From positions 1 through 21,322 of IMG/VR virus record IMGVR_UViG_3300001533_001120: 21,322 nt of DNA. The stretch is one strand, 5' to 3'. How positions within the stretch are numbered: position 1 is the stretch's first letter; the number at the start of each line of letters is the position of its first letter. The DNA is from a virus. Below are positions 1,137 to 21,322 of the stretch, piece after piece. The notes below the pieces were generated by a model. That model did not search any database. It was not told the DNA's origin and worked only from the letters and a program-made list of their open reading frames with translations. A program made the translations under genes and the position numbers.

Positions 1137-4100
1137 TCATTCTCCTTTATAATTTATTAAAGTATCTATTAAGTTATTACCACTTTTAGAACTACTATAG
1201 GTGGCTCTAAATCCATACCTACTAAAGATATATTCCTTAACTTGTCTTTTCTTTTTAGTTATCATTTTTTCTTTGTCTTCACTAGGCATATCCCTATATA
1301 CCTTTAAATCTTTAATAGCCTGGAACCAATTATTCATTACATAATTAAAAGCATCACCAGCTCTTTTAGTTTCCTTTTCTCCATATAACCACTTAAACTG
1401 TTTCATTTCTTCACTGGTTTTGGTTTCCCAATGGTCACTGCAAAATGAGTATGTTGTTACATTGATTCCAACACCTTCTGCAATTACAGCTAACATAGTA
1501 TCAGCAGCATAGGGGTCAGTTCTATCCTCAAATCCTGTTTCTACTATTATAGGAATAAATAGTCCTTTAAATACAGAACCTGGTGTAGTCTTTTCTCCAT
1601 CAAATGTTCTACCAAGAGCTATCTCTTTAATTTGAGAAGTTAGAGGAGCCCATTTATTCTCAAAGTAATTATATAAAACATCTAATCTGTCTTCGGCTCC
1701 GTATTCAAAAGTATCCAGTTTCTTTACAACTCCTGTAGTACTCCGTTTTGTGTATCCTGTAAACTGTCTTGCAGCTAACACAACTATAGAACCCATTCCC
1801 CCAGAATAATCGAATCTAGTGTTCCCTATCTTAATTTTCCCAAAATCAGTACTTCTGGGGTCTTCTTCATGTCCTTCTGGATTGAAGATTCCATTAAGTG
1901 CATATATTGTAGCCATACCAGCTATATTTTTAAGTAGATTTTTAGCTGCCTCTTTCTTCATCATACCAGAAACCTGCTGGTCTCCTATATGTGCTGTTAG
2001 GAATCTTAAATGGGAAGTAAGTAATCTAGGAGCAAAGAAGAACTTATTTATAGTTTCAGCAGAGCCTTCTAGTGGTCCTAAGGTACTTCTACCTGTCATA
2101 GCATTGGCTACTCTCCCTATACCAAGTCCAGTAGTTTCTTTATGTCCTAGTCTTTTTGCCATAGCAGAATAATGCTCATATAAAGCTATTCTATTTCTAT
2201 AAGACATACCTGTATAGGATACATCGGATATTTTCTGTAACCATCCTAGTATAGGAATTTCTTGTATTGCAGAACTTCCGACCATTTCTTCTTCTACTGT
2301 GGAGACATCAAGTTTATCTTTTACCATTTCTCCATATTGTGGATGAGAATATATGCTGGCATTTATTTCATCCATCATATCCTGATGACCAGCAGTTTTG
2401 ACAACATCTCTAATCATTAATCCTGCATTTTTGAACCAGGTTTTAGGGGTTGACCAGAATACTTTTAAACTCTGTCTGAACAAGTTACTCATGTCCCATG
2501 TTGCCTTCATAGTTTTAGAAATTCCAGCTAGTCCAGAAGCAACCCTACCAATATTTTTAGGATAAATATGCTCTATCAATTTTAATTTTCTAGCTTCCTG
2601 TTTTAATACTGCCATGTAGTTTCTAAAGTTAACGACTGCTATCCCAAAATCCCTCTCAGTAGGTGTCATATCCTCATGTTTTGCAGGATTCCTTCTAGGA
2701 TTATTACCCATTATTTCTCTTTTTTTCAATACTTCCTGGGATAATTTGAAAATTGTCTGGGCTTCAGAAGCACTTACAGCAACCCCTAGTTTATGTTCTG
2801 CTAGATCTTTTAAAAAAGCTTTCTCACTTATGGGGTTCAGTAGGTCTTCCATTTTTGCACTGTTTATTTTCATGAAGATGTCTTTTTTAGCTCTTTTAGG
2901 TAAAACTACCTTCTTCCACCATCTTATTAGTCCAGCCTTTTTATCTTTAAGTAATAACTTTGATTCAAAGAACCAGTTAGCATCATAAGCCTTTTCTTTT
3001 AATCTTGTTTTGTCCTTAATATAGGGTGCAAAAGTTTCCTCAAACCAGGCTCTCCTTTTTCCAGAAGACATATCCGCTATGACATCTAATCTAATCTTTT
3101 GAGGGTCAGAATCTGGAAGGTCTACTCTTCTTATCATTTCCTCTGCTAAATCGTTATCTAATGCGTGTCCTTCTTCTAAAAGTTGTCCTTGTACAATTTC
3201 ATCTTGAGACGCAGCAGATAATACAGTAGTATCAGGACCTTGTTGCTCTCTATTTTTTTTACTTCTAAATATACTTTTAAGTCTTTTTTTGAAACTTTCC
3301 AGGGATATACCCATGAAACTTTCTATATTTTTAGTTTCTTTCTGAATAGATTCATCTATTTTGGGATTTCTTTTCTTTGCCCATTGTTTTTTTGTGTCTT
3401 TAATTACTTTATAAGCAGTTACAAAATCATATTGTCCCATACTATCAAAGGCTTTAGTTTGTTGCCCATAAAATGTAGCTAATTCAGAAATGAATGAATT
3501 TTTAGCTAGCCTTGTTAATATCTCCATGTCACCAGATTTTCCTGCTATGTTGACAAAAGCATTAAATACAGCTCCTGGGATAAGTCTACCTTGCGAATCG
3601 GCAGGCACCCCAGGTTTGCCATCTATTTCTCCTGTTAATAAATAATTTCTTACTTCTTCGTAATTATTTTCTACATAGTCTATAGCTCTTTCTGCGTTTT
3701 CCAACAAATCAGCAGTAGTATAATGTTGAAGCTCTGTATCTGAAAGCCCTTGTTGTGTTTGAAGGGCTATAAAATCAGCAACCCTTTTAGAGATTGTATG
3801 GGTTTTCCCTTTGTCGGACTTAGGATAGTCCCTCATTCTCTCTCTTTCTGATTCTATCTCTGATTTTCTCGATTCCTCTGACTTTTCCCAAGGAAATTGA
3901 CCTCTACTAGAAGTTTCTCCCGAAGGTTCTACTGGTCCAGTTTCTCCAAAATCATATCCAGCTTGGATTGCTTCTCCAGGTTCGGCAGGTCCTGTTTCCT
4001 GGGTATCAAGTTTATCTAAATCTCTCAAAGTATTTATGGTTCTGTCTATGGAGGGGAGAAACTCTCCTATAACAGCAGCCATAGTTTTATTCTCTACTTC

Positions 4101-6596
4101 TGGATAATATTGAGTTTTCCTTTTTATTAATTCTTTAACATCAGATAAAGCATCTAAAACTACCTTTCTTTGTGATGGACTTACATCTGTAGCTAATATC
4201 TTTATAAATTCCATATTCTTAAAATCTAAGTCCTCAAAAGCTTGGTATAAATTAGCAATTTGTCGTTTAATCTCTGGGTCTTCAATTTTATTCAGATTTT
4301 GGTTTACTTCGTCTTTATGTAATTCTATAAACTTTTTATTGATTTCTTTGTTTTCAGAATAATCTATTTTCTCTTTCATTAGATTTATTCCAGTAAGGGT
4401 TGGCTCACCAGCATTATAGCCTGTTTGGGAGGTATCTATCCTACCTGGAGTATGTTCTTCTACATTCGTAGGGGTTATTCCAGGTTCTGTAGTACCTGTT
4501 TCAGTTCTCCCTATATTAGTTCTAGCCTCTGGAGTTGTTTCTAATTCTTCTATAGGAAGTTTGGATTCTTTAGTTTCTAAGTTAACCTTAAGATTCCACA
4601 AAGGTTTTCCAGCGTTCTCCTTAAAAGGGCTATTAGTGGTACCCATTAACTCAACTAAGGTAGGTTTAAAAAGTCTGGCTTCTTCTTTTGTTATATAACC
4701 ATCAAAGCCATCTTCTTTTATTTTAGTTTCATTTAGACCTTCTTCTGTTTGGTATTTATCTATGTTCTCTGAAACAGTTAAATCTAATAAGGTGTCCTTA
4801 TCTACTCTGGCTTTATATAAACTTTCACCCATTAAAAATTGTTTTTCAGGTCTCCCTTGTCTGGTATAAAAAGCAGTAGTAGGTTCTGATTTTTCGTCGT
4901 TCTCTATTCTTTCTCTTTCTGCTACTGTTCTGTTTGAGCCTATTTGGGTTGGGTCAACCGTTTTAATATCATCCATAGGTGAGATATGGTATAATTCTTC
5001 TACATTAGACATCTCATCGCTTGCTATTTCTTTTATTTCTTGTTTTAATACTTCCATTTCAGATGGCTTAATTTCTGTATTTTTTGGGAATATTTCTTCC
5101 ACCTTTTTATCAATATTCTTTTTAATATTTTCCGATGCATCCTTATCAGACATTTTAGCATCTATCAGATCCTTGACTCTGGCTGTCATTCTGGCTTTTG
5201 TTAGAGGTGCCTCAGAACTTTTCACAGTTGTACCCTTGGGGGCAATAGTATCAAATTCTGCTTGAGTAGCTTCCATAAAAAATGGGTCCGCTGGCTCTGT
5301 CCTTGTTAAAGGAGTAAATAGCTCTTCTTGTGTTTGTGTGCCTGTCTCAGAGACATCAAATTGCTCCTGCTGAGTGGGTTCTAAATTGAAAGGAGAAAGA
5401 CCTTCAACTCTGGGCATTGGACCAGTTTCTCCAGATGGAGCCATAGAAATCTCTGGTCTTGCTGGTGTTTGTCCTTGTCCTGCTTCCTGTACATGTCTTT
5501 GTTCAATTTCCTGCATGAGAGATTCATCTTTTGAAGCCTCTATAACAGATTTATTTATGTCTTCTTTGTGTTCCTCCATTAAGCCAGCTATTTTCTTTGT
5601 TAGAACTTCTTTATCTTTTTTATTTAATTTTATATTATTATCTTTTTGGAAGTTGCCCAAGACTACACTGGCAGGGGCTCCTAATAGTGCTCCTATCAAT
5701 GCAGCTCTTACTACACCTTCAAATATATCTTGTTCACTTTTGAAAGTTGTTTTGTCAATGATATTTCCAAAAAACTCCTGAGAAAATTCCTGCATACCCT
5801 CAGAAGCAGAATGTACCATAGTGCTAAGGATTCTATTCATTCCTGGAAATCGTTTAAACATGAAGTCTAATCCTATATATTCTAATCCACCTTCTACCAA
5901 ACCTCTTACCATAGCTATTTTATTAGATTCTTTCCTTGAAAGACCAGCTTCTCTTGCTTCTTTGTAAGATTGTCCTGATTGATAGAGTCCAAATAATACT
6001 GAGGCAGCATGAGGGGATTTAGTTAGTACACTAACTAAAGCAGCAGCTCCAAGAGTAGTAGCTCCAGCAGCAACGTCAGCAACAAATTTATCTACTTCTG
6101 AACCTTCAAATGGATAATATTTCATCATCTCTTGCATGTTTTTATCCATTTCCTTGAAAGCTTCTGCTTCCCATCGTGCTCCTATTTCATCGCCTCTTTC
6201 TTTGAACTCATCATTTATTTTTACCATATCATTATACCAATCTGGAGCATCTGGGTTAGTTCCATCCCCATATTGGTCTTTATATTTGTTTATCTTCTCC
6301 TGGAAAGGACCTTCCATTTCAACCAATCCACCACCATATAGTCCTTTTATACCCTGGAAAACTTGTGGACCTAAATATTTTCCCTGTTGCCATAGATTCT
6401 GAGCACCTATTTTAATAGTATTCCATAAAACACTACCCTCAGAAGTTTCTTCAGATGCCAATTGTTCCCATGAAGGTATCGAGGATCCCTCGGTATCTGG
6501 TTTTTTAACTTGGTCTACTATACTTGAAGGAGAACCCATCATTCCACTGGTATTATATTCTTTTTGTTCTTTATCTAATTCTTCCCATGATAACAT
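1137..6596 (-). CDS. Giant internal virion / large polyvalent protein with ART-like segment
   Basis: This 1,819-aa protein is the largest gene. Residues 1-160 are mixed and charged. Residues about 170-205 and 295-315 are Ala/Gly-rich hydrophobic stretches (AAGATTLGAAALVSVL, AALIGALLGAPASVVLG). Residues about 355-460 and 690-740 are Pro/Thr/Glu linkers with repeated ETGP. Residues about 533-650 resemble a phage ADP-ribosyltransferase-like fold: LYHISP, then TAFYTRQG, LYKARVDKDTLLDL, and DGFDGYITKEEARLFKP. Residues about 950-1055 end in TFYGQQTKAF, similar to the TxxGQ motif of large polyvalent phage proteins. Residues about 1350-1750 resemble the C-terminal part of internal virion/ejection proteins (DMSNLFRQSLKVFWSTP, NKFFFAPRLLTSHLRF, STDFGKIKIGNTRFDYSGG). 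The start touches the previous stop (TAAATG). A role in DNA ejection or delivery with the genome is inferred from size, position and these segments. No lysozyme or transglycosylase motif was recognised. Confidence 0.85.
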   Translation of the reverse strand: MLSWEELDKEQKEYNTSGMMGSPSSIVDQVKKPDTEGSSIPSWEQLASEETSEGSVLWNTIKIGAQNLWQQGKYLGPQVFQGIKGLYGGGLVEMEGPFQEKINKYKDQYGDGTNPDAPDWYNDMVKINDEFKERGDEIGARWEAEAFKEMDKNMQEMMKYYPFEGSEVDKFVADVAAGATTLGAAALVSVLTKSPHAASVLFGLYQSGQSYKEAREAGLSRKESNKIAMVRGLVEGGLEYIGLDFMFKRFPGMNRILSTMVHSASEGMQEFSQEFFGNIIDKTTFKSEQDIFEGVVRAALIGALLGAPASVVLGNFQKDNNIKLNKKDKEVLTKKIAGLMEEHKEDINKSVIEASKDESLMQEIEQRHVQEAGQGQTPARPEISMAPSGETGPMPRVEGLSPFNLEPTQQEQFDVSETGTQTQEELFTPLTRTEPADPFFMEATQAEFDTIAPKGTTVKSSEAPLTKARMTARVKDLIDAKMSDKDASENIKKNIDKKVEEIFPKNTEIKPSEMEVLKQEIKEIASDEMSNVEELYHISPMDDIKTVDPTQIGSNRTVAERERIENDEKSEPTTAFYTRQGRPEKQFLMGESLYKARVDKDTLLDLTVSENIDKYQTEEGLNETKIKEDGFDGYITKEEARLFKPTLVELMGTTNSPFKENAGKPLWNLKVNLETKESKLPIEELETTPEARTNIGRTETGTTEPGITPTNVEEHTPGRIDTSQTGYNAGEPTLTGINLMKEKIDYSENKEINKKFIELHKDEVNQNLNKIEDPEIKRQIANLYQAFEDLDFKNMEFIKILATDVSPSQRKVVLDALSDVKELIKRKTQYYPEVENKTMAAVIGEFLPSIDRTINTLRDLDKLDTQETGPAEPGEAIQAGYDFGETGPVEPSGETSSRGQFPWEKSEESRKSEIESERERMRDYPKSDKGKTHTISKRVADFIALQTQQGLSDTELQHYTTADLLENAERAIDYVENNYEEVRNYLLTGEIDGKPGVPADSQGRLIPGAVFNAFVNIAGKSGDMEILTRLAKNSFISELATFYGQQTKAFDSMGQYDFVTAYKVIKDTKKQWAKKRNPKIDESIQKETKNIESFMGISLESFKKRLKSIFRSKKNREQQGPDTTVLSAASQDEIVQGQLLEEGHALDNDLAEEMIRRVDLPDSDPQKIRLDVIADMSSGKRRAWFEETFAPYIKDKTRLKEKAYDANWFFESKLLLKDKKAGLIRWWKKVVLPKRAKKDIFMKINSAKMEDLLNPISEKAFLKDLAEHKLGVAVSASEAQTIFKLSQEVLKKREIMGNNPRRNPAKHEDMTPTERDFGIAVVNFRNYMAVLKQEARKLKLIEHIYPKNIGRVASGLAGISKTMKATWDMSNLFRQSLKVFWSTPKTWFKNAGLMIRDVVKTAGHQDMMDEINASIYSHPQYGEMVKDKLDVSTVEEEMVGSSAIQEIPILGWLQKISDVSYTGMSYRNRIALYEHYSAMAKRLGHKETTGLGIGRVANAMTGRSTLGPLEGSAETINKFFFAPRLLTSHLRFLTAHIGDQQVSGMMKKEAAKNLLKNIAGMATIYALNGIFNPEGHEEDPRSTDFGKIKIGNTRFDYSGGMGSIVVLAARQFTGYTKRSTTGVVKKLDTFEYGAEDRLDVLYNYFENKWAPLTSQIKEIALGRTFDGEKTTPGSVFKGLFIPIIVETGFEDRTDPYAADTMLAVIAEGVGINVTTYSFCSDHWETKTSEEMKQFKWLYGEKETKRAGDAFNYVMNNWFQAIKDLKVYRDMPSEDKEKMITKKKRQVKEYIFSRYGFRATYSSSKSGNNLIDTLINYKGE

Positions 6597-7622
6597 TTAG
6601 AACCATCCCTGACTTTTAGCATATTCTAAGACTTGTATTCTCTGTGGAGAACCTGCTGGATAACTTGCTGCTAATGCCTTTAATTCATCTTGACTTTTTC
6701 CTGCAAATGGGTTTGTATTTTCAGCTCCAGGAGCTCCAGTAGAATTTTCTACAGGGGGTTGATTCCCTCCTGTTGAGTTGCCTGTAGCCCAATCCACTGC
6801 TGGTTGTACGAATTTCCCTAAGGCAGTATCATAAAACCAATCACTAAAACCCTCTCCTTTTTCTACTTTTTCAAACCCTGCCAGGGGGTCTTCTCCAGTG
6901 ACTCCTGTTCCACCGCCAGCTCCAGTGACTCCTGGAGAACTTTCTGGGGTAGCCATTTTAGGAGTTCCACCTTTATATTCTGGATAATACAGACCCATAT
7001 CTTTGTTAAGTTTTACGTCCACATTTTCACCTGGATAGGCTGCTTTAGTTCCTGCTGCGGTTGGGTAGTATGTTCCTTGGTCTATAAGTCCTTGTCTGGC
7101 TTGGGCTGCCTCTTCTTGTCTTTTAGCTTCTGCTTTCTGTCTTGTTTCCACCATAGTTGTCATTTGACTTTTAGCTACTTCACCATATTGCATTGCTTTT
7201 TCAGAGGTGAATGTATTCATAACGGAATCATACATAGTGTTAATGTCCCCTGCTTCTAATAACTCAGTAGAACCCATCAGGTTTTCAGTAAGAGATGAAA
7301 TATATTCCATTTGAGACCTTGCCTCGTCTGCATGCCCCTGATTAATAAAAGTAACTAGTCCTTCAAATTGATTCTGTAATTCAGCCCTTGCAGAAAGATA
7401 CATAGTGTTTAACTGTAATAATTCCTGGTCTGTTACCCCATCTTGAATAATTTTATCTACCTTACTTGTGAAATCTTTCATTTCGACAGCTATTTCTTTT
7501 TTTAACTTAGCTTCTTCATCCCTTAGTTTCTTCATTTCTTCTATTTCTAATTTTTTTGCTTTCCATGACATCCCAGAGCCTATTCCCTCTGCGAAGCCAC
7601 TAACAAAACTTCCAATTGCCAT
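6597..7622 (-). CDS. Coiled-coil virion protein, probably internal/ejection-associated (341 aa)
   Basis: The start is placed at the ATG at 7622, because AAGGAG lies eight bases before it. An in-frame GTG at 7631 would directly abut that site and is not a plausible start. The N-terminus (MAIGSFVSGFAEGIGSGMSWKA) is Gly-rich and amphipathic. Residues about 25-180 are long charged helices with coiled-coil character. The last third is a Gly/Pro/Ser linker region, followed by a helical end containing AGKSQDELKALAA. It lies between another coiled-coil protein and the giant internal protein, with its stop immediately preceding the giant gene's ATG. This matches the position of internal virion (ejection) proteins in T7- and P22-like phages. 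No enzymatic motif is visible and the family is not recognised. Confidence 0.8.
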   Translation of the reverse strand: MAIGSFVSGFAEGIGSGMSWKAKKLEIEEMKKLRDEEAKLKKEIAVEMKDFTSKVDKIIQDGVTDQELLQLNTMYLSARAELQNQFEGLVTFINQGHADEARSQMEYISSLTENLMGSTELLEAGDINTMYDSVMNTFTSEKAMQYGEVAKSQMTTMVETRQKAEAKRQEEAAQARQGLIDQGTYYPTAAGTKAAYPGENVDVKLNKDMGLYYPEYKGGTPKMATPESSPGVTGAGGGTGVTGEDPLAGFEKVEKGEGFSDWFYDTALGKFVQPAVDWATGNSTGGNQPPVENSTGAPGAENTNPFAGKSQDELKALAASYPAGSPQRIQVLEYAKSQGWF

Positions 7623-7634
7623 ATTAATCACTCC

Positions 7635-8591
7635 TTATAATAATAGCCATCCAAACAGGAATCCAAATATATTACCTAATCCACCCCAAAAAGAAGCTTT
7701 CTCATTTGCTTCTATCTCCATTTGCATCATTTCTTTTTCTGCTTCTATTCGAGATTCCTGGAGAAGGTTATTGTAATAATATTCTGCTTCCATATTTTGT
7801 TCCTGATGTGCTTGGGCTAAATTTAATTTATAAACATCCATCTTTTGCTGGTATTCTATTAGTTTAGCTTCCTGTTCTACTTGCCATGTAGCAAATTCTG
7901 GTTGATATTTTAATTGAGACTGAGTACTTAAATAATCTAAGAACTGTCCAGCAGCACCCATAGCTTTTTCAAAAGATGCTAACTTCATAAGTTCTGATTG
8001 TATTTTTACATCAGTGATGCTCTTGGCAAGATTTTGGGTAGTATTAGCTTTGACCTTTTGTGTTTCAGAAAAAAGAAGACCTGAATTAGTTATTCCTCTT
8101 CTTTCCATGTCATTCTTCATGACTCTTAATTGCTCTTCTTCATCAGCCTTGAGGACATCACCAATTTGTTCTTGCATGAGTTCCTGGGTTTCTTCTGGAA
8201 TCCCATATCCACCAGCATCTAACCAATCCTGCAATTCTCCCTGGTAGTTCTCAGCCCATGCTTGCTCTTCTGGTGATGGTTCATAAGCTGGGGCATCGCT
8301 AATGTTAGGGGCACTTGGCATTTTAGGTTTAGTTGGTTCCCACGTAGGGGCTATTGGACCTTGAGGCTGATTATATGGTTGAGGCTGATTATTACCCCAT
8401 CCACCTGTACCAGTTACTCCTGCTTCTCCTGTATATTTCCCACCCTGAATATTACCTGCTTCGTAGAAATTCCAAAAATCCTTTGTAGTAGCTACCCCCA
8501 TTCCCGAAAGGTCATAAGTTGTAAATTTCTTTCCTGTATAAGGGTTTATATCACTTCCTACTTCAGGTTCGACAACAAAATTGTTTGCCAT
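7635..8591 (-). CDS. Coiled-coil virion protein with C-terminal hydrophobic tail (318 aa)
   Basis: An N-terminal region of about 130 residues is rich in Gly, Pro and Gln (WGNNQPQPYNQPQGPIAP). Residues about 115-295 are long Glu/Gln/Lys helices. The C-terminus is a 20-residue hydrophobic, Gly/Phe-rich segment ending FGFLFGWLLL, which could insert into a membrane. Helix plus terminal hydrophobic patch suits a protein ejected into the host envelope to help form the DNA conduit; this is inference. The motif VMKNDMERRGITNSGLL resembles helical segments of other podoviral internal proteins. The start at 8591 has GGAAG eight bases upstream. The gene lies just across the divergent promoter of the plus-strand lipoprotein gene. 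Confidence 0.8.
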   Translation of the reverse strand: MANNFVVEPEVGSDINPYTGKKFTTYDLSGMGVATTKDFWNFYEAGNIQGGKYTGEAGVTGTGGWGNNQPQPYNQPQGPIAPTWEPTKPKMPSAPNISDAPAYEPSPEEQAWAENYQGELQDWLDAGGYGIPEETQELMQEQIGDVLKADEEEQLRVMKNDMERRGITNSGLLFSETQKVKANTTQNLAKSITDVKIQSELMKLASFEKAMGAAGQFLDYLSTQSQLKYQPEFATWQVEQEAKLIEYQQKMDVYKLNLAQAHQEQNMEAEYYYNNLLQESRIEAEKEMMQMEIEANEKASFWGGLGNIFGFLFGWLLL

Positions 8592-9154: not shown

Positions 9155-9994
9155 TTACCTTGCTTTTATATCTAATTTTACAGTTATCTGAACACTTAAC
9201 CTGGATCTTGTAGTAGATTCAAATTTTACTAGTTTACCCCCAGAGCCTATTACATCATTAGTTATATCAATGGCACTTTGGTTCTCTTCAAATGGTCCAT
9301 AAATATCAGAATAAGAATTGCCCTCATTATTTGATACAGCAAATTGAATAGCTGGAGAATTATCTTCTTCATGGATTCCATAGCTAATATCGTGTGTGTG
9401 GTCGGGTGTTGTGTGGGTATGGTCATTTATGGTTACAGTGTGGGAATGAGAACCAATAATAACCTTGTGTGTATGTATATTATTTGGTAAAGTTACAACC
9501 CTTTTTGTAGTAATAAGCCATCCATTTTCATTCTCATCACCAACATTACTTACAGAAGAAGAAGCTATATAATCATACACTGTGGTAGTGTTTCCAGATG
9601 ACTTGGTTGTTTTTGTACCATAATTATAGCTATTACTTGTCTTGGTATCTCCACCACCACTCCCCGAAGTAGAACCACCCCCGCTTTCAGCAGCAGTAGA
9701 ATAAGCTCTGTAATTCATAATCCAGAAATCTAACCAAACAGATACTATTTTAGTCATTTCTGATATGATGTTAAAATGAACATAAAAAGGATAACTCGAA
9801 TCCAAAGAATCCTGAGCATTGATTACATAGGTATTTCTAAGCTCTTTCATATTATATGAAGTTATTCCACCATCTACATAATCATTTATTGCCTGTAACT
9901 GAAGCTTTATTTTTCTTATAACTTCATTCATGTCCTGTTCAGGCATTTTATTACTAGAAGATAATATTTCATTTATTTTATTTTGTAAGCTCAT
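9155..9994 (-). CDS. Fibre-like tail protein with HxH metal-binding repeats
   Basis: This 279-aa protein has a helical N-terminus (residues 1-95), a Gly/Ser-rich linker (about 103-120) and a beta-rich C-terminal part. Within that part are four HxH motifs at residues 174-176, 183-185, 192-194 and 199-201 (HTH, HSH, HTH, HTH), about nine residues apart. Regularly spaced HxH motifs in phage fibres such as T4 gp12/gp37 bind metal ions on the axis of a trimeric stalk, so a trimeric, metal-stabilised fibre tip is plausible. The start overlaps the stop of the 592-aa gene (TAATG) behind AAGGAG. It probably attaches to the tail tube encoded upstream. The receptor is unknown. Confidence 0.8.
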   Translation of the reverse strand: MSLQNKINEILSSSNKMPEQDMNEVIRKIKLQLQAINDYVDGGITSYNMKELRNTYVINAQDSLDSSYPFYVHFNIISEMTKIVSVWLDFWIMNYRAYSTAAESGGGSTSGSGGGDTKTSNSYNYGTKTTKSSGNTTTVYDYIASSSVSNVGDENENGWLITTKRVVTLPNNIHTHKVIIGSHSHTVTINDHTHTTPDHTHDISYGIHEEDNSPAIQFAVSNNEGNSYSDIYGPFEENQSAIDITNDVIGSGGKLVKFESTTRSRLSVQITVKLDIKAR

Positions 9995-11772
9995 TAATAC
10001 TCCTTTGCCTCAGCATCAAATACTATCATATAACCCTCAAAAGTTACATCATATTTATCCGATACATACGGTCTTATTTTAATAGCCCTTCCTCGTTGTC
10101 CTCCGCCTTCTAGGTCGATTTTGTACCACTTTGTTTTATTAGCTGTTAATGTTAAGTCTTTATAAGTTTCACTTGCGATACCATTATCGTCTAATAGAGT
10201 GTAATACATTCTTAACGAGGTTCCCGTAGTTGAAGTAACCTTGATATATATATTATGAAATTCTTTATATAATTCTGGAATACCAAAATCCATGAAGTCA
10301 GTTTCGTCATTACATGCTATAGCAGAACCATCATCATCCAAAACTCCGTTGTCTATTTGATATACTCTCCCTATGGAAGTAGAGCCACCAAAAAGAAGTT
10401 CTCCATCACCCATTCTGTCTCTAAGGTTATAACAGGAAAAGGCAAAATCATAAACACCAAAAACTTTATTGACTAAATCTATTACTATTGATTCAGAATT
10501 GATAGTACTCGAACCTTTAGGGTACGAAAGAATATACAGGTCTTTATATACAGTAGCAGCAGCTACACCTATATAATCATCATTTATATTATCCTGAATA
10601 TAGGAACTCAGTTTTTTATGAAGTTCTTTGGCTTCTGTTCCATCAAAATAATATATACCATCAAAACTTAAATACATAACCATGTTTTTGTATATTTGAA
10701 CAGACCTGGGAGCATAGCATCCTTTTTTGGTAAAAGTGTTTTTAAACTCAAAATTATCAGTATCGGTTCCAGCTAATCTTTCTATTGAAGATTCTGTTAA
10801 TACAGGCAAAACTGTTACCTGTTCAATTAGCCCCTTAATTTTTTCTCTACCGCCTGTTTTTAAAAACCATGCAGCATCCACATAATCGGGGGCAGAAGTC
10901 TCTGACCAATAAAGATTATCTCCCTCTGCATAATACATTTTATTTCTTCTTTTTTCAATCAGATGAGCTCCACTTGGAGGAGTACTATGAGTTATATGTA
11001 ATCTACTTCCTAAGGTTGAATCGCCCTGGGTTGAATTATAGGTTGTGGTTGTATTATTATCGACTTCCCCATCATAGTAATAAATAGCTCCATTCCCAAC
11101 AGTTCTATATATTCTTCTTTTAGTTACTTTATCATCAGATGATGTGTCTATATTTATTTTAATACCATCTTCACTATCCCCTGATGTTCCTGATGTGATT
11201 ATAGCAGAGGCTTCACTTCCGTTGGATTCATAACCATCTTCATCTACAAAGGTTACTTTGAATTTATAATCAGCTTCTTCATCTAAAGAACCATTAATCA
11301 AAGCATTACTAGTAGGAGCATCTGGAACTGTTATCCCCACACTTCTTACGTAGGTTTCTCCGTACTTTTGTATTGCATCCTCTCCATTGACTATATAACA
11401 TAAATCATAGAAATTAGCAAAGTAAGTATCAGAGTCCGCTGTCTGAGTGTAATCTGTCCCAGATTCTGACTCCAGGGCAGTTGCAGCATGTCCAGCAGCA
11501 GAAGCTAATTTATATAATTTTGTGTTCCAGGCTGCTATCATTGTCTTTGACAAGTCACCCTCATTATAAAACGTATGTAGTCCCGTTATTGCATGAGAAG
11601 ATCCTATAGAATCTGTATTATATTTAGCATACCCCTTCCTTTTTTCTATCTGTCCGTATTCATTAATGAACATATTTTTGAGACCATCAATAGGTCTTGA
11701 TATATCTCTTAATTTAATCTGAGAAGGAGATAAGTCATCAAATATTTTTACTATTACTTTTTCTTGAGCCAT
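9994..11772 (-). CDS. Tail tube / stabilisation protein (T7 gp12- or P22 gp10-like)
   Basis: A 592-aa, beta-rich protein directly downstream of the adaptor gene, the usual position for the tail nozzle or stabilisation protein of podoviruses. The N-terminal segment PIDGLKNMFINEYGQIEKRKGY matches the opening of this family, where an N-terminal Arg-rich strand is followed by NM-xx-G-I-xRKG. Further in are repeated strands (ITGLHTFYNEG, IVNGEDAIQKYG, VMYLSFDGIYYFDGTEAKEL) suggestive of a propeller-like or Kelch-like barrel. The length is close to that of P22 gp10-type proteins. The start at 11772 has GAGG eight bases upstream. Its product is expected to assemble below the adaptor ring and carry the HxH fibre encoded next. 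Confidence 0.8.
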   Translation of the reverse strand: MAQEKVIVKIFDDLSPSQIKLRDISRPIDGLKNMFINEYGQIEKRKGYAKYNTDSIGSSHAITGLHTFYNEGDLSKTMIAAWNTKLYKLASAAGHAATALESESGTDYTQTADSDTYFANFYDLCYIVNGEDAIQKYGETYVRSVGITVPDAPTSNALINGSLDEEADYKFKVTFVDEDGYESNGSEASAIITSGTSGDSEDGIKINIDTSSDDKVTKRRIYRTVGNGAIYYYDGEVDNNTTTTYNSTQGDSTLGSRLHITHSTPPSGAHLIEKRRNKMYYAEGDNLYWSETSAPDYVDAAWFLKTGGREKIKGLIEQVTVLPVLTESSIERLAGTDTDNFEFKNTFTKKGCYAPRSVQIYKNMVMYLSFDGIYYFDGTEAKELHKKLSSYIQDNINDDYIGVAAATVYKDLYILSYPKGSSTINSESIVIDLVNKVFGVYDFAFSCYNLRDRMGDGELLFGGSTSIGRVYQIDNGVLDDDGSAIACNDETDFMDFGIPELYKEFHNIYIKVTSTTGTSLRMYYTLLDDNGIASETYKDLTLTANKTKWYKIDLEGGGQRGRAIKIRPYVSDKYDVTFEGYMIVFDAEAKEY

Positions 11773-11781
11773 TATTTACCT

Positions 11782-12474
11782 CTAATCAAAAACATCTGTT
11801 CTGCCCCATCTTATAACATAAGGAACCCTGGTTGGTCTGTACTCTGGTATCATTTGAAGAGATTCATCCTTATGACTATTTAGAATAGAATTTACTTTCC
11901 TTACTCCAGCATAAAAACTTCCTAATTTTTCATAGTATTTATCCATTTCATTCTTTTTATACCAACATTGAGCTATAGCAAAATCACGTATATAAATACG
12001 AAAAGCAACCGTTCTATAGTCGCCATTGAATGGGGTTTCAGTGTCAGATAATTCTTCTGGTCTCTCTATTCCATAAAAAGAAATAACATCTCCAGCAGAT
12101 GGAGCAGGATATAATCCTATATAATCTCCTCTTATGTAATACATTTTAGGAGTACCTGTGTTGTCTCTCCAGTTTCCTCCCCATGTATCCAGGACTGAAA
12201 TTGATGTTGGTTTTAATGTGTCATCATTACATGTAACACCACCCTCATCAAATGCTATAAAATCACTGGGTAATCTAATTTCCCTATCATTCACAATATC
12301 TGAAGCCTCCAAGGTTCTGGTATAAAAACTGGACAGTAACCCTGTTTCTGAAGACAAAATTTCCTGTCCTTGGTTAACCCATCTAGTTATTTCTGTATCA
12401 TTCCAGAAAGAGGCTGTGGTTTCATTTATTAGTGAACGAATATCAGTTATCATTTCTGATATATTTGCTAACAT
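11782..12474 (-). CDS. Head-tail adaptor / tail tubular protein A-like
   Basis: A 230-aa protein whose N-terminus (ISEMITDIRSLINETTASFWNDTEITRWVNQGQEIL) is the characteristic helical start of podoviral head-to-tail adaptor proteins, as in T7 gp11 and P22 gp4-like families. A beta-rich centre (IRLPSDFIAFDEGG, IGLYPAPSAGDVISFYGIE) and a C-terminal helix pair (YIRDFAIAQCWYKKNEMDKYYEKL) follow. It would form a dodecameric ring under the portal. The ATG overlaps the stop of the 65-aa gene (TAATG). The gene is followed within ten bases by the tail tube gene, which supports the assignment. Confidence 0.85.
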   Translation of the reverse strand: MLANISEMITDIRSLINETTASFWNDTEITRWVNQGQEILSSETGLLSSFYTRTLEASDIVNDREIRLPSDFIAFDEGGVTCNDDTLKPTSISVLDTWGGNWRDNTGTPKMYYIRGDYIGLYPAPSAGDVISFYGIERPEELSDTETPFNGDYRTVAFRIYIRDFAIAQCWYKKNEMDKYYEKLGSFYAGVRKVNSILNSHKDESLQMIPEYRPTRVPYVIRWGRTDVFD

Positions 12475-13277: not shown

Positions 13278-14486
13278 TTATGCTATAGTGGAAGCTCCAC
13301 TAATTAAGTTAATTCCAAACATACCATTAAGGGGAGTAGCTACAAAGAATAATCTCCAAGAAACTAAGCTAAATGCGTTAGTAGCATTAGAGGTATCCTG
13401 AGGTCCACTTACTTTAACGATAAGCTTATCCTTAACTCCATCAATTCTAGTACCAGCTATAGCGTGTGCACCAAAAATAGGTGTGTGTCTTACAGTACCA
13501 GAAGCAGCAAAGAGTCCGAAACCTCTATCCTGGGTAGTTTCGTGGTCAGAAGCATCAGTAACTAATTCCATATAAGGTTCGGTATCTTCGTACCATCTTA
13601 CTCCGCCCCATTTCCCGACTTCTCCATTTAAAATGTTTTCTGGAGAGGCATAATTTTGAGCATTTACCCAGGAACTATCCTGTTTAAAATCGTACTCAAC
13701 AAATGGGTCCATAATGCCTACATAGTTCTTACCATCGAACTTAGGTGCATTATGAGACTTTAACAACGCTACAGCTCTTTCTACCGCTTCAGTGGTGATA
13801 ACATCACTTGAATCAAGACCTGTACTAACTACGATTCTGAATGTATCTTCAGCAGCAGGAGCTTCCTCTAAAGCAGGAGTGAATGTAACAGTATCAGTAC
13901 TAGCGACAAAATCAGTAACTAAGTGAACAGAACCTTTATTTGTTCCACTAGTAAAGATAATTATTCCATCATTCCAGTAATTATCAGTCTGTGTTAAAGT
14001 TGCATCTACAACAGTTGTAGCACTAGCAGAATCTACAGCTCCGCTTACAGCATAAGAACTACTGTTGTCTACTCTCAATGGGTAGAATCCAGTAGCCATA
14101 GCCTGTCTGTAAAGTCTGTTAACACTTCTTCCCATATTTTCGCCCTGTAACATTACAGCAGAGTCGAGAACGTCATCGTAAGCGGTTAGCTGAACTAATT
14201 CAGTAAGTCTTACAGAGTTAGCATATTTGCTAACAGTTTTCTCGAACTCAAAAGCTTCCATCTCAACGTAATCAGGGTTCTCACCTTCGGAAGTAGTAGC
14301 AGTTACAATATCCAGTGGGACATATCTAGTAAAGTTAACAGTTTTACCTTCTCTTTGAGGGATGTCTCTTGATTTGTCAGCAAGAGAATCAATTACCATA
14401 GAGGGTTTTGCATAGTGTAACAAAGCCCTGTCGTAATAAGTTTTCATTAATTGTGTGAGTGTACTTGTGGTTGTCGCAGTTCCCAT
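13278..14486 (-). CDS. Major capsid protein, N4-gp56 family (HK97 fold)
   Basis: A 402-aa protein following the scaffold gene. Its N-terminal third has the N4-gp56-type signature: a start near STLTQLMKTYYDRALLHYAKP, then IPQREGKTVNFTRYVPL, TATTSEGENPD, and RLTELVQLTAYDD (to residue 105). The late part contains YVGIMDPFVEYDFKQD, GVRWYEDTEPY and FFVATPLNGMFGINLI. Residues about 140-220 (TDNYWNDGIIIFTSGTNKGSV...VTFTPALEEAPAAEDTFRI) look like an inserted beta domain that could project from the capsid surface. The start at 14486 has a strong AAAGGAGAT site seven bases upstream, but that site is embedded in a long hairpin (14491-14537). The product would form the procapsid shell with the scaffold protein. 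Confidence 0.92.
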   Translation of the reverse strand: MGTATTTSTLTQLMKTYYDRALLHYAKPSMVIDSLADKSRDIPQREGKTVNFTRYVPLDIVTATTSEGENPDYVEMEAFEFEKTVSKYANSVRLTELVQLTAYDDVLDSAVMLQGENMGRSVNRLYRQAMATGFYPLRVDNSSSYAVSGAVDSASATTVVDATLTQTDNYWNDGIIIFTSGTNKGSVHLVTDFVASTDTVTFTPALEEAPAAEDTFRIVVSTGLDSSDVITTEAVERAVALLKSHNAPKFDGKNYVGIMDPFVEYDFKQDSSWVNAQNYASPENILNGEVGKWGGVRWYEDTEPYMELVTDASDHETTQDRGFGLFAASGTVRHTPIFGAHAIAGTRIDGVKDKLIVKVSGPQDTSNATNAFSLVSWRLFFVATPLNGMFGINLISGASTIA

Positions 14487-15550: not shown

Positions 15551-15820
15551 TTATCTCCTTATCATTTTTAATTCTTTTTCTGATGTTTCTGATAATTCAC
15601 TGTAATTGTCTATTATCTGAAACAACTCTTTAATAGCATTTATCTGTGATTGATATTTTAACATATAAACATATTCTGATGCATTTAACAGTTTGAAAGT
15701 TAAATCATCTATCTTTTCTTCTAACCTGGATTTCAATATTCCCCAACCTTTAGTGCTCAAAGTTTTGTTTACTTTGGCAGCTTCATCTAGATTGAGTTCT
15801 AAATATTCTTCTTGATTCAT
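15551..15820 (-). CDS. Small helical protein between portal and scaffold (89 aa)
   Basis: An 89-aa, mostly helical protein (NQEEYLELNLDEAAKVNKTL, KGWGILKSRLEEKIDDL). Its ATG overlaps the portal stop (TAATG) behind AGGAG, and it ends three bases before the scaffold ATG. A small gene of this type is common at this position in podoviral head clusters, but its function is not established. No known domain was recognised; a portal- or scaffold-binding factor is possible. Confidence 0.75.
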   Translation of the reverse strand: MNQEEYLELNLDEAAKVNKTLSTKGWGILKSRLEEKIDDLTFKLLNASEYVYMLKYQSQINAIKELFQIIDNYSELSETSEKELKMIRR

Positions 15821-17778
15821 TATCTTGCTCCTAAATTCTGAGTAGCACTAGGTCTACCCGATTGCATGGTTCCCTGGCTTGATACCCTTTCTAGTGGATT
15901 ACTCATATCCGTAGGAGGTCTACCCCTAGGAGCTCCTCCAGGGGAAAGAGGACCTCCTGGGGTGTTTTGGGTAGAGGGGTTGCTACCCTGAGGGTTCATC
16001 CCTTGTAACTGAAGTCTCTTCTGTCTCAAGTAAGGAAGTAAATCCTCTAAATTCTTGAATCCAGAAAGCTCTGCAATTCTTTTCATTATTTCTCCCACAT
16101 CAGCCTTTGGAACCATAACAGGGTTCCCATCTTCACCCATTAAGGGTTCTCCTGTGTTTTGGTCTAATGCAGGTACGGTTGCTTTAGTTGAAATTTCTAA
16201 AAATCTTAACATCTTTTCTATTTCTGCTTGTTTTTCTGAAAATACAGACACACCCCTTGCTATAAAAGTAGGAGGTTCTGTTAACTGTATGTCCTCTTTG
16301 GTAATATCTGCTCTATGTTTTTCTTTTTCCCATTCCTCTGCTTTTTCCCTACCAAGTATTTGATAAGCAGGTGCACTTTCTAAAAATTTCAAATATAATT
16401 CCAACATAATTTCCAGAATAGATTCAAACGCTGGTTCAAAAGAATGTTTAACATCGTGTTTAATAGGTTCGGAAGCATTAGCCTGAATCATCTGGGTAGC
16501 ACCTAATGTTTCTGGTAGTCCAGCTTTATCAACAACGGGTGATATAACAGGAACAGCTTGAGTATTTCTCTGTATTTCATCCTTTAACATCCCTATTAGT
16601 TTTATTAAAGGTCCTAAAGCAGCAGCTTGAGAACTTGTATCCATCCAATACATAGCATGAGCAACATTTTCTACACCTGGTTGAGTTTTAAACATCTTAC
16701 CAGGATGAGAAATAATTGTGCCCTTCATTCCTACCATCTGACTTAGATTTACTACAGCCATAGGATTTGCTATAAGATTGATACAGTCCGTAAGTTTATT
16801 ATGTGCATTGGTTAATTCTTGAGCCATAGCTTCAATATCTTCGGCAGTACCAACACCCAACATTTCATTAGGTAGTCTATCCTTAGAGGCTTCTACAAAT
16901 TGTCTAGTTGTTTCGTAAGGATTTTCGTCTCTACGTATTATAACATCTCTATTTGCTAAAGTTATAATAGCATCCACATATTCATCTTCATATGGATTAA
17001 CTTGTGATACATCATATAAATCTCCCTCTAAGAGAGATTTAGGAACTTCCCCATGATACTCTAATAACTCTACCCTATTCTTTGTACTTCCCTGTTCTGG
17101 GGAATCGTTATCATCAGGATTATCATTCTGAGGCTGAGATGTATTATACAAATCTCCTATATTTTCATAGATCCCTTCATTTTCTAACATTCTTAGTTTG
17201 CCTATGAAAACATCCCTATATTGTAATACAACCCAACTGTCATTGATGTTCACTGACCCAGGATCGGGGAAAGTACTAAATACATCCAAGGTTTCAAATT
17301 CTGGTCCATGAAAAGTTGTTTTGCCTTGTTTATCTTTTTCATCTTTCCAATAAACCCTACCTAATGTGTATCCATACATTTCTCTTTGTTTCATAAAATC
17401 TTCCATTTGTCCATACAATCCACCCCTACGCTTACCAATACCCCTTAAACCGTAGGTAAGCAGATTCTTTGTATAGAACATCTTGCTTTCATCTTCTTTA
17501 GAACCTGGTTCCACATCAAAAGATTCATACCCCTTTGCAAATAATATATTCATAAATAAAGGTATTTTGATTCTTAATGCCTCTTTTAAGGAAGGAATGA
17601 CATAATTAGCCTGCCAGAACTCCTTCCTTGGGTCTCTTTGCCCTCTATATTGTTTATGATACCTTCTCATGGCATCATGTCTTGTTTGGAGTTCTCTTTT
17701 TGAATATGCCCATTGTTCTAAAACAAATTCTTTCAGGGCATCCTTTATAAATAAAGATTTCTCTTCTTCTTTAGCCAT
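15820..17778 (-). CDS. Portal protein
   Basis: A 652-aa protein directly after the large terminase gene. It has a Lys/Arg/Tyr-rich N-terminus (WAYSKRELQTRHDAMRRYHKQYRGQRDPRKEFWQ, residues about 17-50), a region describing the wing and stem (YGQMEDFMKQREMYGYTLGRVYWKDE), and the conserved late block MLGVGTAEDIEAMAQELTNAHNKLTDCINLIANP that lies near the stem/crown in portals of this type. The C-terminus is Pro/Gly-rich (SPGGAPRGRPPTDMSN). The length lies between T7 gp8 and the P22 portal. AGGAGATA lies upstream of the ATG. It forms the dodecameric DNA channel that docks the terminase and later the adaptor ring encoded at 11782-12474. Confidence 0.9.
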   Translation of the reverse strand: MAKEEEKSLFIKDALKEFVLEQWAYSKRELQTRHDAMRRYHKQYRGQRDPRKEFWQANYVIPSLKEALRIKIPLFMNILFAKGYESFDVEPGSKEDESKMFYTKNLLTYGLRGIGKRRGGLYGQMEDFMKQREMYGYTLGRVYWKDEKDKQGKTTFHGPEFETLDVFSTFPDPGSVNINDSWVVLQYRDVFIGKLRMLENEGIYENIGDLYNTSQPQNDNPDDNDSPEQGSTKNRVELLEYHGEVPKSLLEGDLYDVSQVNPYEDEYVDAIITLANRDVIIRRDENPYETTRQFVEASKDRLPNEMLGVGTAEDIEAMAQELTNAHNKLTDCINLIANPMAVVNLSQMVGMKGTIISHPGKMFKTQPGVENVAHAMYWMDTSSQAAALGPLIKLIGMLKDEIQRNTQAVPVISPVVDKAGLPETLGATQMIQANASEPIKHDVKHSFEPAFESILEIMLELYLKFLESAPAYQILGREKAEEWEKEKHRADITKEDIQLTEPPTFIARGVSVFSEKQAEIEKMLRFLEISTKATVPALDQNTGEPLMGEDGNPVMVPKADVGEIMKRIAELSGFKNLEDLLPYLRQKRLQLQGMNPQGSNPSTQNTPGGPLSPGGAPRGRPPTDMSNPLERVSSQGTMQSGRPSATQNLGAR

Positions 17779-17786
17779 GTTATCTC

Positions 17787-19136
17787 CTAAATTCCGCTAA
17801 ATATGTTAGCTTTTGATTTAGCATATTCTAATTCCGATTCATAATCGAATCTATCATCAAGGGCGATTGGATTCTTTTCAGCTACAGCGAAGTAACGCCA
17901 TGCGTCAGCAGCATGGTCATTTCCATCTCTTCTTGGGTTTGATGTATAGCAGTTCATTGTTCTGCTCCAGGTTTTAGAATAGGCTTCCAGGTGGTCTAAA
18001 AGTAGTCTGCATTTATTTTCATCAAAATATGCTCTACTGAACATGCTTCTTCCTGCTTCTATTCCTGCCTGATGAGATATTTTGGGTACAATCTGGAAAT
18101 TTATTCCATATTCCCTTGCAATCTCTATAGCTGGTTTGCCATCCTGGAACCATTGTTTTGCCCTTAAATCATGAGGTCCATAATGATTTCCATAAGTATA
18201 TCCTCTTTGAGCTAATACCTGGGCATAATGCTGGATTCCTTCACCCATATTTTCATAAAAATCAACAATATGGTAACGAGTAGGATAAACTTGATAAAAT
18301 ATTATCGAAGTAAAATCAGTAACACCAATATCCCATGCAGTATGTACAGGTCTAGAAGAATCCACAGGAACCTTGGTAATCCTGTCTCCTTCGTCTCTGA
18401 GTTTCTGGATTTCTCTTCCATAATAACTTCCTTCAATCCCCATTTCAAAGGAACAATAGTATTCCTGTTGAATCATTTCCTCAGACATGCCCTCTCTGCG
18501 TTCTTCTTCAATGTCCTCTTCTGTGAGGACCCCTGTTTCTGTTATAGGCAGAACCTGAGAAAACCATGTCTTAGGATTCATTTTGGCTACATTATAATGT
18601 AATCTGTAACCATGATTTCTCCCTCGTGGGGTATAGGGGAATATTGCTATTCCTTTATTTTCCCTCAAAATTGGTCTGATATACTCCCATGCCTGAGGGT
18701 TCTGAAGTGCATATTCAGAAAATACACACCAAATTGGATTAGTTCCCATTATTGCATCAAAATTGTCAGTTCCTATTATCTGGAACATAGAACCATTCTT
18801 CATACGGATTTTCATCTCGTCATTCCATGTAGTAGCCCTAAGTTCCTCAGGAATGAAGTCTAGGAACCTTTCGCCACTCCTTGTTATTCCATCCCAGATA
18901 ACCTTTTTCCCTTGAGCAAATGTGGGGAAGAAGTAATAATATGAACCTACTCCTCCATAGCCAGTCTGATTTTTTGTATCACACATAGCAGCAGCAGTTG
19001 CATTAATAATGGTTAAATCCTTGCCTGCCCTACGATGCCATACTAAATCATGTCTCCTATAGCCTCTTTCAAGTGCCCTAAAGAATGGTAACTGATAAAA
19101 TCTTGGTGTATAATTATATGGTAACTTAATCGCCAT
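17787..19136 (-). CDS. terL: Terminase large subunit
   Basis: A 449-aa packaging motor. The ATPase part shows a Walker A-like loop HRRAGKD (residues 34-40), a Walker B/catalytic carboxylate IWCVFSE (Glu141), and a coupling motif YTPRG (168-172). The nuclease part shows the three metal-binding Asp residues: AWDIGVTDF (Asp269), GPHDLRAKQW (Asp323) and HAADAWRY (Asp411). All catalytic positions are intact, so the enzyme should translocate and cut concatemeric DNA together with the small subunit. The ATG overlaps the end of the 63-aa gene by 11 bases. Its family, next to an N4-gp56 capsid protein and a T7/P22-type tail, supports a podovirus. Confidence 0.95.
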   Translation of the reverse strand: MAIKLPYNYTPRFYQLPFFRALERGYRRHDLVWHRRAGKDLTIINATAAAMCDTKNQTGYGGVGSYYYFFPTFAQGKKVIWDGITRSGERFLDFIPEELRATTWNDEMKIRMKNGSMFQIIGTDNFDAIMGTNPIWCVFSEYALQNPQAWEYIRPILRENKGIAIFPYTPRGRNHGYRLHYNVAKMNPKTWFSQVLPITETGVLTEEDIEEERREGMSEEMIQQEYYCSFEMGIEGSYYGREIQKLRDEGDRITKVPVDSSRPVHTAWDIGVTDFTSIIFYQVYPTRYHIVDFYENMGEGIQHYAQVLAQRGYTYGNHYGPHDLRAKQWFQDGKPAIEIAREYGINFQIVPKISHQAGIEAGRSMFSRAYFDENKCRLLLDHLEAYSKTWSRTMNCYTSNPRRDGNDHAADAWRYFAVAEKNPIALDDRFDYESELEYAKSKANIFSGI

Positions 19137-20400: not shown

Positions 20401-20814
20401 TTAGCTAATTTCTTCCGCCTCTTCCTCTTCAGAATATTTAGTAGGAATTACTTCCTCTTTTGCCTCTGTAGTTAAGAACTTCGTTATAAACACATTGAAA
20501 GGGTTACCAGTGTTTCTGATGTCCCTTACAGTAATGTCTGGTACAAACTTCTTCAGCAAAGCTATAAGTACTTTATCGGACTTATAAGCCCTGGAAATGA
20601 AGTGCTCTAAGAGCTTTTTACGTTTCCTTTTTTCTACTGTATTTATAGCTTGCCTAAGTTCTTCCAGATTGTATGTCCGTTTTTTCATCTTGCTCAATTG
20701 AGCTCCAGGAAGAAGTCTCCCTCTGGCATCCCTAGGAGCTACTTCATCTGGGGTCGGCAAGTACTCTGATTCTATATATTCTGGTTTATGGTCTATTCTA
20801 TTTTGTTCTTCCAT
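20401..20814 (-). CDS. Probable terminase small subunit
   Basis: A 137-aa protein that is first in the packaging operon. It has the segment RDARGRLLPGAQLSK (residues about 28-42), reminiscent of the R-x-DGT-F-xPGN-x-x motif in small-terminase-related phage proteins, then a basic helical region (TYNLEELRQAINTVEKRKRKK) and FISRAYKSDKVLIALLKKFVPDI, ending in a run of Glu. Position one before terL (after small genes) and the DNA-binding-like basic helices support TerS, which recognises the packaging site. AAAAGG lies six to eight bases before the ATG at 20814. The family call is moderate because TerS proteins diverge strongly. Confidence 0.65.
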   Translation of the reverse strand: MEEQNRIDHKPEYIESEYLPTPDEVAPRDARGRLLPGAQLSKMKKRTYNLEELRQAINTVEKRKRKKLLEHFISRAYKSDKVLIALLKKFVPDITVRDIRNTGNPFNVFITKFLTTEAKEEVIPTKYSEEEEAEEIS

Positions 20815-20950: not shown

Positions 20951-21021
20951 GTGACAAACCAACATTACCTGATTTCACAATTGGTTTGGAGCCAAGTATT
21001 TTACCATTAAACTATCGGCTC
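20951..21021 (-). tRNA. Degenerate tRNA-Trp(CCA)-like element
   Basis: Reading from 21021, the first 43 bases fit a tRNA position by position: acceptor GAGCCGA, TA, D arm GTTT-AATGGTA-AAAT, A, anticodon arm CTTGG-CTCCAAA-CCAAT with anticodon CCA (Trp) after the invariant T33. Four of the five anticodon-stem pairs form. After a five-base variable loop the T arm does not fold, and the 3' acceptor strand TTGTCAC pairs only partly, with two mismatches. Instead GAGCCGA can pair with the internal TTGGCTC (20995-20989), and CAAACCAA with TTGGTTTG (20988-20981 with 20962-20955). It is therefore a decayed tRNA, a tRNA-like piece of the adjacent RNA, or a two-hairpin structure resembling one, not a convincing functional tRNA. 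Confidence 0.3.
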
Positions 21022-21322
21022 TTTTCAGGGGGCACAACACCCGCATGGTTGAGTTAAGTTAATAACCTACCCACGACGCTCCCTCTACTACTTCTGCACA
21101 TGGCAGATTAGCTTTTGACTGCCCCACCTATCTTGCGAAAAGACCCTTGGTCTTTTATCAGCAGGGCAGTACCTTTTGCAATCAGGAAGGCAGAGGGTGT
21201 TGGCTTAAACCATGCCTTGCGGGAGAAGTCCTATAAACATCTCACTCTGATTGCCTACAGCCTACCTTTAGCCAACTTCAGTAGGCGGTTGATAATGGCA
21301 AGGTGAGCAGGAAACCCCACTC
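21022..21322 (-). ncRNA. Large structured noncoding RNA (ROOL/GOLLD-like candidate), partial
   Basis: Minus-strand sequence entering at the right edge folds into many mutually compatible helices: GCATGGTT with AACCATGC (21215-21208 / 21050-21043), CCCTCT with AGAGGG (21197-21192 / 21086-21081), ACTGCCC with GGGCAGT (21170-21164 / 21124-21118), AAAAGACC with GGTCTTTT (21156-21149 / 21145-21138), a TCTGC/GCAGA hairpin (21107-21093), and GCCTAC with GTAGGC (21286-21281 / 21265-21260). The loop of the last contains GTTGGCT (21276-21270), exactly complementary to AGCCAAC (21205-21199), a pseudoknot. GCAATCAG (21254-21247) matches CTGATTGC (21185-21178), a crossing or alternative helix. G+C is visibly higher than in the genes. 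No convincing gene occurs here. Phage location, size, complexity and an adjacent tRNA-like element resemble ROOL and GOLLD RNAs, but membership is inference. The 5' end lies outside the window. Confidence 0.6.

Follow-up and report, generated by a model that had tools for sequence, protein, structure and literature searches.

The last 301 nucleotides of this viral record (positions 21022 to 21322) raise the question of whether a phage encodes a structured noncoding RNA here and, if so, whether that RNA belongs to a known class. The window analyzed is the entire record, 21,322 bases with both ends open, and the candidate is therefore cut at the contig end. Our preferred reading, to which we give about an even chance, is that a structured but unclassified noncoding RNA, lying in a phage tRNA/RNA island, is represented here by a fragment, its 3' part. 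The original prediction of a large ornate RNA is a possible reading of the stretch, as yet unproven.

Gene context and the tRNA-like neighbor

Nearly all long frames of the record run leftward, and several of their products were recognized by protein family matches (Table 1). The candidate lies upstream of TerL, as predicted; "head of the packaging operon" is a loose description of this place, because the start of TerL is 1.9 kb away and five small frames lie in between. The rightmost protein frame of note starts at 20814, and over the remaining 508 bases of the contig the minus strand holds no frame of at least 60 amino acids, which argues for an RNA. The base composition points the same way. 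GC content climbs abruptly at the contig end, where positions 21001 to 21300 reach the maximum of the window (0.477; about 0.48 for the stretch versus about 0.36). On the other side of the ledger, no promoter-like sites above chance were found. Elsewhere in the window, the minus strand encodes a 1,819-amino-acid protein (1137 to 6596) that has no PHROGs or Pfam match at an E value of 0.001, and the start of the frame at 9994 to 11772 gives a low-scoring hit to the ribosomal S15 leader (11719 to 11829, minus strand; 21.9 bits versus a gathering score of 39.5), probably due to chance.

Immediately downstream of the candidate is a tRNA-Trp(CCA)-like sequence. Its D arm and anticodon arm are typical, the T region is shortened and contains no T arm, and the sequence thus departs from the tRNA (RF00005) cloverleaf, which includes one. 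ARAGORN did not call it as a tRNA. In BLAST searches, its D/anticodon part resembled phage tRNA-Trp and tRNA-Gly genes, with the matches confined to that part. A fold of two hairpins (-18.4 kcal/mol) is favored by 14 kcal/mol over a cloverleaf without the T arm (-4.0 kcal/mol). The element is probably a decayed or repurposed tRNA.

Table 1. Features of the window discussed in the text. RNA numbering counts down from 21322; for helices, the 5' strand is given before the slash.
Feature	Position	Strand or direction	Basis or remark
Internal-virion/head-closure-like protein	9994-11772		Protein family match
Major head protein	13278-14486		Protein family match
Portal-like or head-tail adaptor protein	15820-17778		Protein family match
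TerL	17787-19136	Leftward	Protein family match; start at 19136
tRNA-Trp(CCA)-like sequence	20955..21021	-	Rfam tRNA, 30.2 bits (gathering score, 29)
Candidate noncoding RNA	21022..21322	-	5' end open (contig end); 3' end would adjoin 5' end of tRNA-like sequence
Small open frame	21112-21306	+	TTG start; 63 amino acids, 64 codons
Exact 7-bp pseudoknot helix	21276-21270/21205-21199	-	RNA 47-53/118-124
Exact crossing 8-bp helix	21254-21247/21185-21178	-	RNA 69-76/138-145
First long-range exact 8-bp helix	21215-21208/21050-21043	-	RNA 108-115/273-280
Second long-range exact 8-bp helix	21202-21195/21042-21035	-	RNA 121-128/281-288
Adjoining 3' strands of first and second long-range helices	21035..21050	-	Partners 21208-21215 and 21195-21202
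5' strands of the same two helices	21195..21215	-	5 nt apart; includes pseudoknot strand 21205-21199
Exact 7-bp stem	21170-21164/21124-21118	-	
Local exact 8-bp hairpin	21156-21149/21145-21138	-	
7-bp stem around 8-bp hairpin	21118..21170	-	Best supported local element; pair probabilities, 0.84-1.0
Hairpin with pseudoknot strand 21276-21270 in its loop	21260..21286	-	Pair probability, about 0.78

Pairing potential and folding

The 301 nucleotides contain six exact Watson-Crick helices of at least 7 bp, and the pairings quoted in the original prediction, among them the 7-bp pseudoknot and the crossing 8-bp helix, are all exact. Helices of at least 8 bp numbered four versus 0.63 expected, a count reached in 4 of 1,500 dinucleotide shuffles; for helices of at least 7 bp, the six observed compare with 2.4 expected (reached in 52 of 1,500 shuffles). 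Four 8-bp helices were found in none of 127 GC-matched 301-nt windows taken from other phage loci. Within the same contig, a 301-nt window at 7476 also has four, the sole other place to do so besides windows overlapping the candidate, and the summed helix score of the candidate is equaled in 40 of the 841 windows of the contig. To describe the pairing as far beyond that of coding or spacer DNA here is therefore too strong. The excess of exact helices is genuine, though of moderate size, and it came to light because such helices were being sought.

The helices also do not nest into a single multibranched fold, as had been proposed. Each of the three long-range 8-bp helices crosses the other two, and four bases of the second long-range helix are also used by the 7-bp pseudoknot. 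The first and second long-range helices occupy one continuous 16-nt 3' strand, with their 5' strands ordered as in a pseudoknot; judged by this geometry, the formation of both in one coaxial stack is unlikely, and the two may be alternatives of each other. The predicted ensemble gives good support to just three elements: the 7-bp stem, the 8-bp hairpin inside it, and the hairpin at 21286 to 21260. The first two make up a compact local element whose pairs have probabilities near 1. The long-range helices have pair probabilities of 0.00 to 0.46, values in which crossing pairs are undercounted because the ensemble model is nested.

The minimum free energy (MFE) of the minus strand over the 301 nucleotides is -100.7 kcal/mol, with an ordinary z score of -1.2; the plus strand does relatively better (z = -2.1), a point against our reading, and the 3' half of the minus strand alone (21022 to 21171) also reaches -2.1. 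As a yardstick, a true ROOL RNA gave MFE z scores of -1.4 for the whole molecule and -0.4 for its 3' 301 nt, and the latter contains no exact helix of 7 bp. Because neither statistic recognizes the true ROOL RNA, the weak z score is no argument against an ornate RNA and the helix excess is no argument for one.

These results bear on the chief rival to a structured RNA, namely, that the stretch is ordinary spacer or leader DNA, a decayed tRNA island with an untranslated leader whose complementarities arose mostly by chance. The mutual conflict of the long helices and the ordinary stability of the whole fold favor this explanation and count against ours, and it is also in keeping with the recurrence of the same helix score along the contig, with a tRNA-like element devoid of a T arm, and with the several intergenic gaps of 150 to 350 nt that related phages show upstream of TerL. 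However, spacer DNA would not be expected to have a GC content well over that of the rest of the phage, nor helix counts exceeding those of GC-matched windows. We regard it as a tentative alternative that we lean against. The same two observations, together with the compact local element and the adjoining tRNA-like sequence, support the unclassified RNA that we prefer.

Comparison with known RNA families and search for relatives

A cmscan of the whole Rfam library at E values up to 10 returned nothing meaningful besides the tRNA, two additional hits (E = 4.6 and 7.2) being far under their gathering scores. The models that the original prediction had singled out gave no match: OLE and HEARO in the whole-library scan, ROOL (RF03087) also when run by name at E values up to 10, and GOLLD (RF02032) likewise when run by name at E values up to 10, the fragment control described below being for ROOL only. 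A group I or II intron, RNase P, and tmRNA are unsupported, as none had an Rfam match, and neither Rfam nor ARAGORN detected a recognizable tRNA inside the 301 nucleotides.

The ROOL RNA of L. salivarius plasmid pMP118 served as a positive control and was found at 130 bits, and its 3' 301 nt by itself was still recognized (E = 3e-12); phage K, tried as another ROOL control, gave no match. An ordinary ROOL RNA would not be missed through truncation at the contig end, because a ROOL fragment of the same length was found, and an ordinary ROOL identity is excluded.

ROOL RNAs are near 570 nt in length, and GOLLD RNAs are about 800 nt. What the original prediction said of their surroundings agrees with the literature: both are encoded in phages, often close to tRNA islands (PMC12286853). 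A ROOL RNA would be expected in a phage or prophage near tRNA genes; the candidate lies on a phage contig, and its neighbor is a tRNA-like sequence that lacks the T arm. Like ROOL, it is phage-borne and noncoding, with crossing pairings proposed; unlike the true fragment, it is not matched by the ROOL model. With GOLLD it likewise shares a phage setting, noncoding character, and proximity to tRNAs, and it differs in giving no match even though the 3' region of GOLLD is described as universally conserved (PMC12286853).

This raises the possibility that the stretch comes from a distant relative of ROOL or GOLLD or from a new class of that kind, a large RNA-only assembly, which would be a special case of the explanation that we prefer. 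The phage setting, the tRNA-like neighbor, and the long-range and crossing complementarity fit such an RNA, but neither the ROOL nor the GOLLD model gives a match here at E values up to 10, a true ROOL piece of 301 nt being found by the former, and long exact helices are not a mark of ROOL, because the 3' 301 nt of the true RNA has none of 7 bp. We consider this unlikely. A narrower version, in which the stretch forms the 3' portion of a large pseudoknotted phage RNA of a new class, neither ROOL nor GOLLD, with its 3' end set by the tRNA-like element, is in our view distinctly unlikely.

Searches for relatives found no homologue of the 301 nucleotides among viral contigs, bacterial genomes, phage and plasmid records, or related phages, which weighs against our preferred reading. 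Compared directly at the DNA level, phage and plasmid records matched only the tRNA part. A 16-base exact pattern had eight hits in viral contigs, which we attribute to chance because the complementary strands were missing from all of them; a 25-base exact pattern and a pattern from the tRNA part had none in the same contigs. Back-translated multipattern scans with the RNA stretch, read in either direction, over viral and genome contigs confirmed nothing. Like the other scans of these collections, they are insensitive to diverged RNA and therefore show the absence of close relatives only. The neighboring 137-amino-acid gene used as a query brought no relatives. TerL relatives were found at 20 loci (the best 65% identical) and capsid relatives at seven, of which L030 and L031 are 81% identical but are fragments that do not include the candidate region. 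Among the other TerL and capsid relatives, no similarity to the 301 nucleotides was seen.

The absence of relatives from every collection searched, along with the abrupt GC rise, would also fit a contig-end artifact in which chimeric assembly attached the last 300 bases from a different genome. No match to any other genome was found either, however, and the tRNA-like element puts the boundary at a natural gene edge; we consider such an artifact quite improbable. Least credible of all is a small protein gene on the plus strand, where a frame is open from a TTG start but has no Pfam match, encodes a translation without relatives in viral or genome contigs, and runs opposite to the recognized genes.

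A candidate RNA in a proposed tRNA/RNA island

In two related records with TerL proteins 65% identical, L002 and L004, tRNA-Thr and tRNA-Met lie some 1.4 to 1.7 kb upstream of TerL, which supports the placement of the candidate in an island. As in phage tRNA islands, a tRNA-like sequence adjoins the candidate and related phages have tRNAs at a similar place, whereas the 301 nucleotides themselves contain no recognizable tRNA. The phage would be podovirus-like, with a small tRNA/RNA island upstream of its structural genes and leftward transcription. We propose that a transcript would begin beyond the contig end and pass through the tRNA-Trp-like sequence. By analogy with RNase P acting on pre-tRNAs, a cut at the 5' edge of this element, predicted despite its missing T arm, could set the 3' end of the RNA near 21022, and the product, whatever its full size, might function in infected cells as a stable folded RNA. 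A role in packaging is suggested by position and by nothing beyond it: the stretch is located 1.9 kb from TerL, where relatives have tRNAs. If real, an RNA without known relatives would join the few large phage noncoding RNAs, whose functions are open, in a small podovirus-like genome. For now, the candidate amounts to a single incomplete sequence that offers a starting point for gathering relatives.

The related records hold further tRNA-like sequences. Upstream of tRNA-Thr in L002 (positions 580 to 660), and also in L004 (about 8145 to 8220), is a tRNA-like structure with an encoded CCA in which acceptor-type and T-type stems flank one long hairpin; neither ARAGORN nor Rfam calls it, and its fold is similar to that of a tmRNA-style tRNA-like domain lacking the mRNA part. 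Between tRNA-Thr and tRNA-Met of L002 (838 to 912), a further tRNA-like sequence, called by no tool, has a T-loop-like GGGTTCAAGTCC and a CAT triplet.
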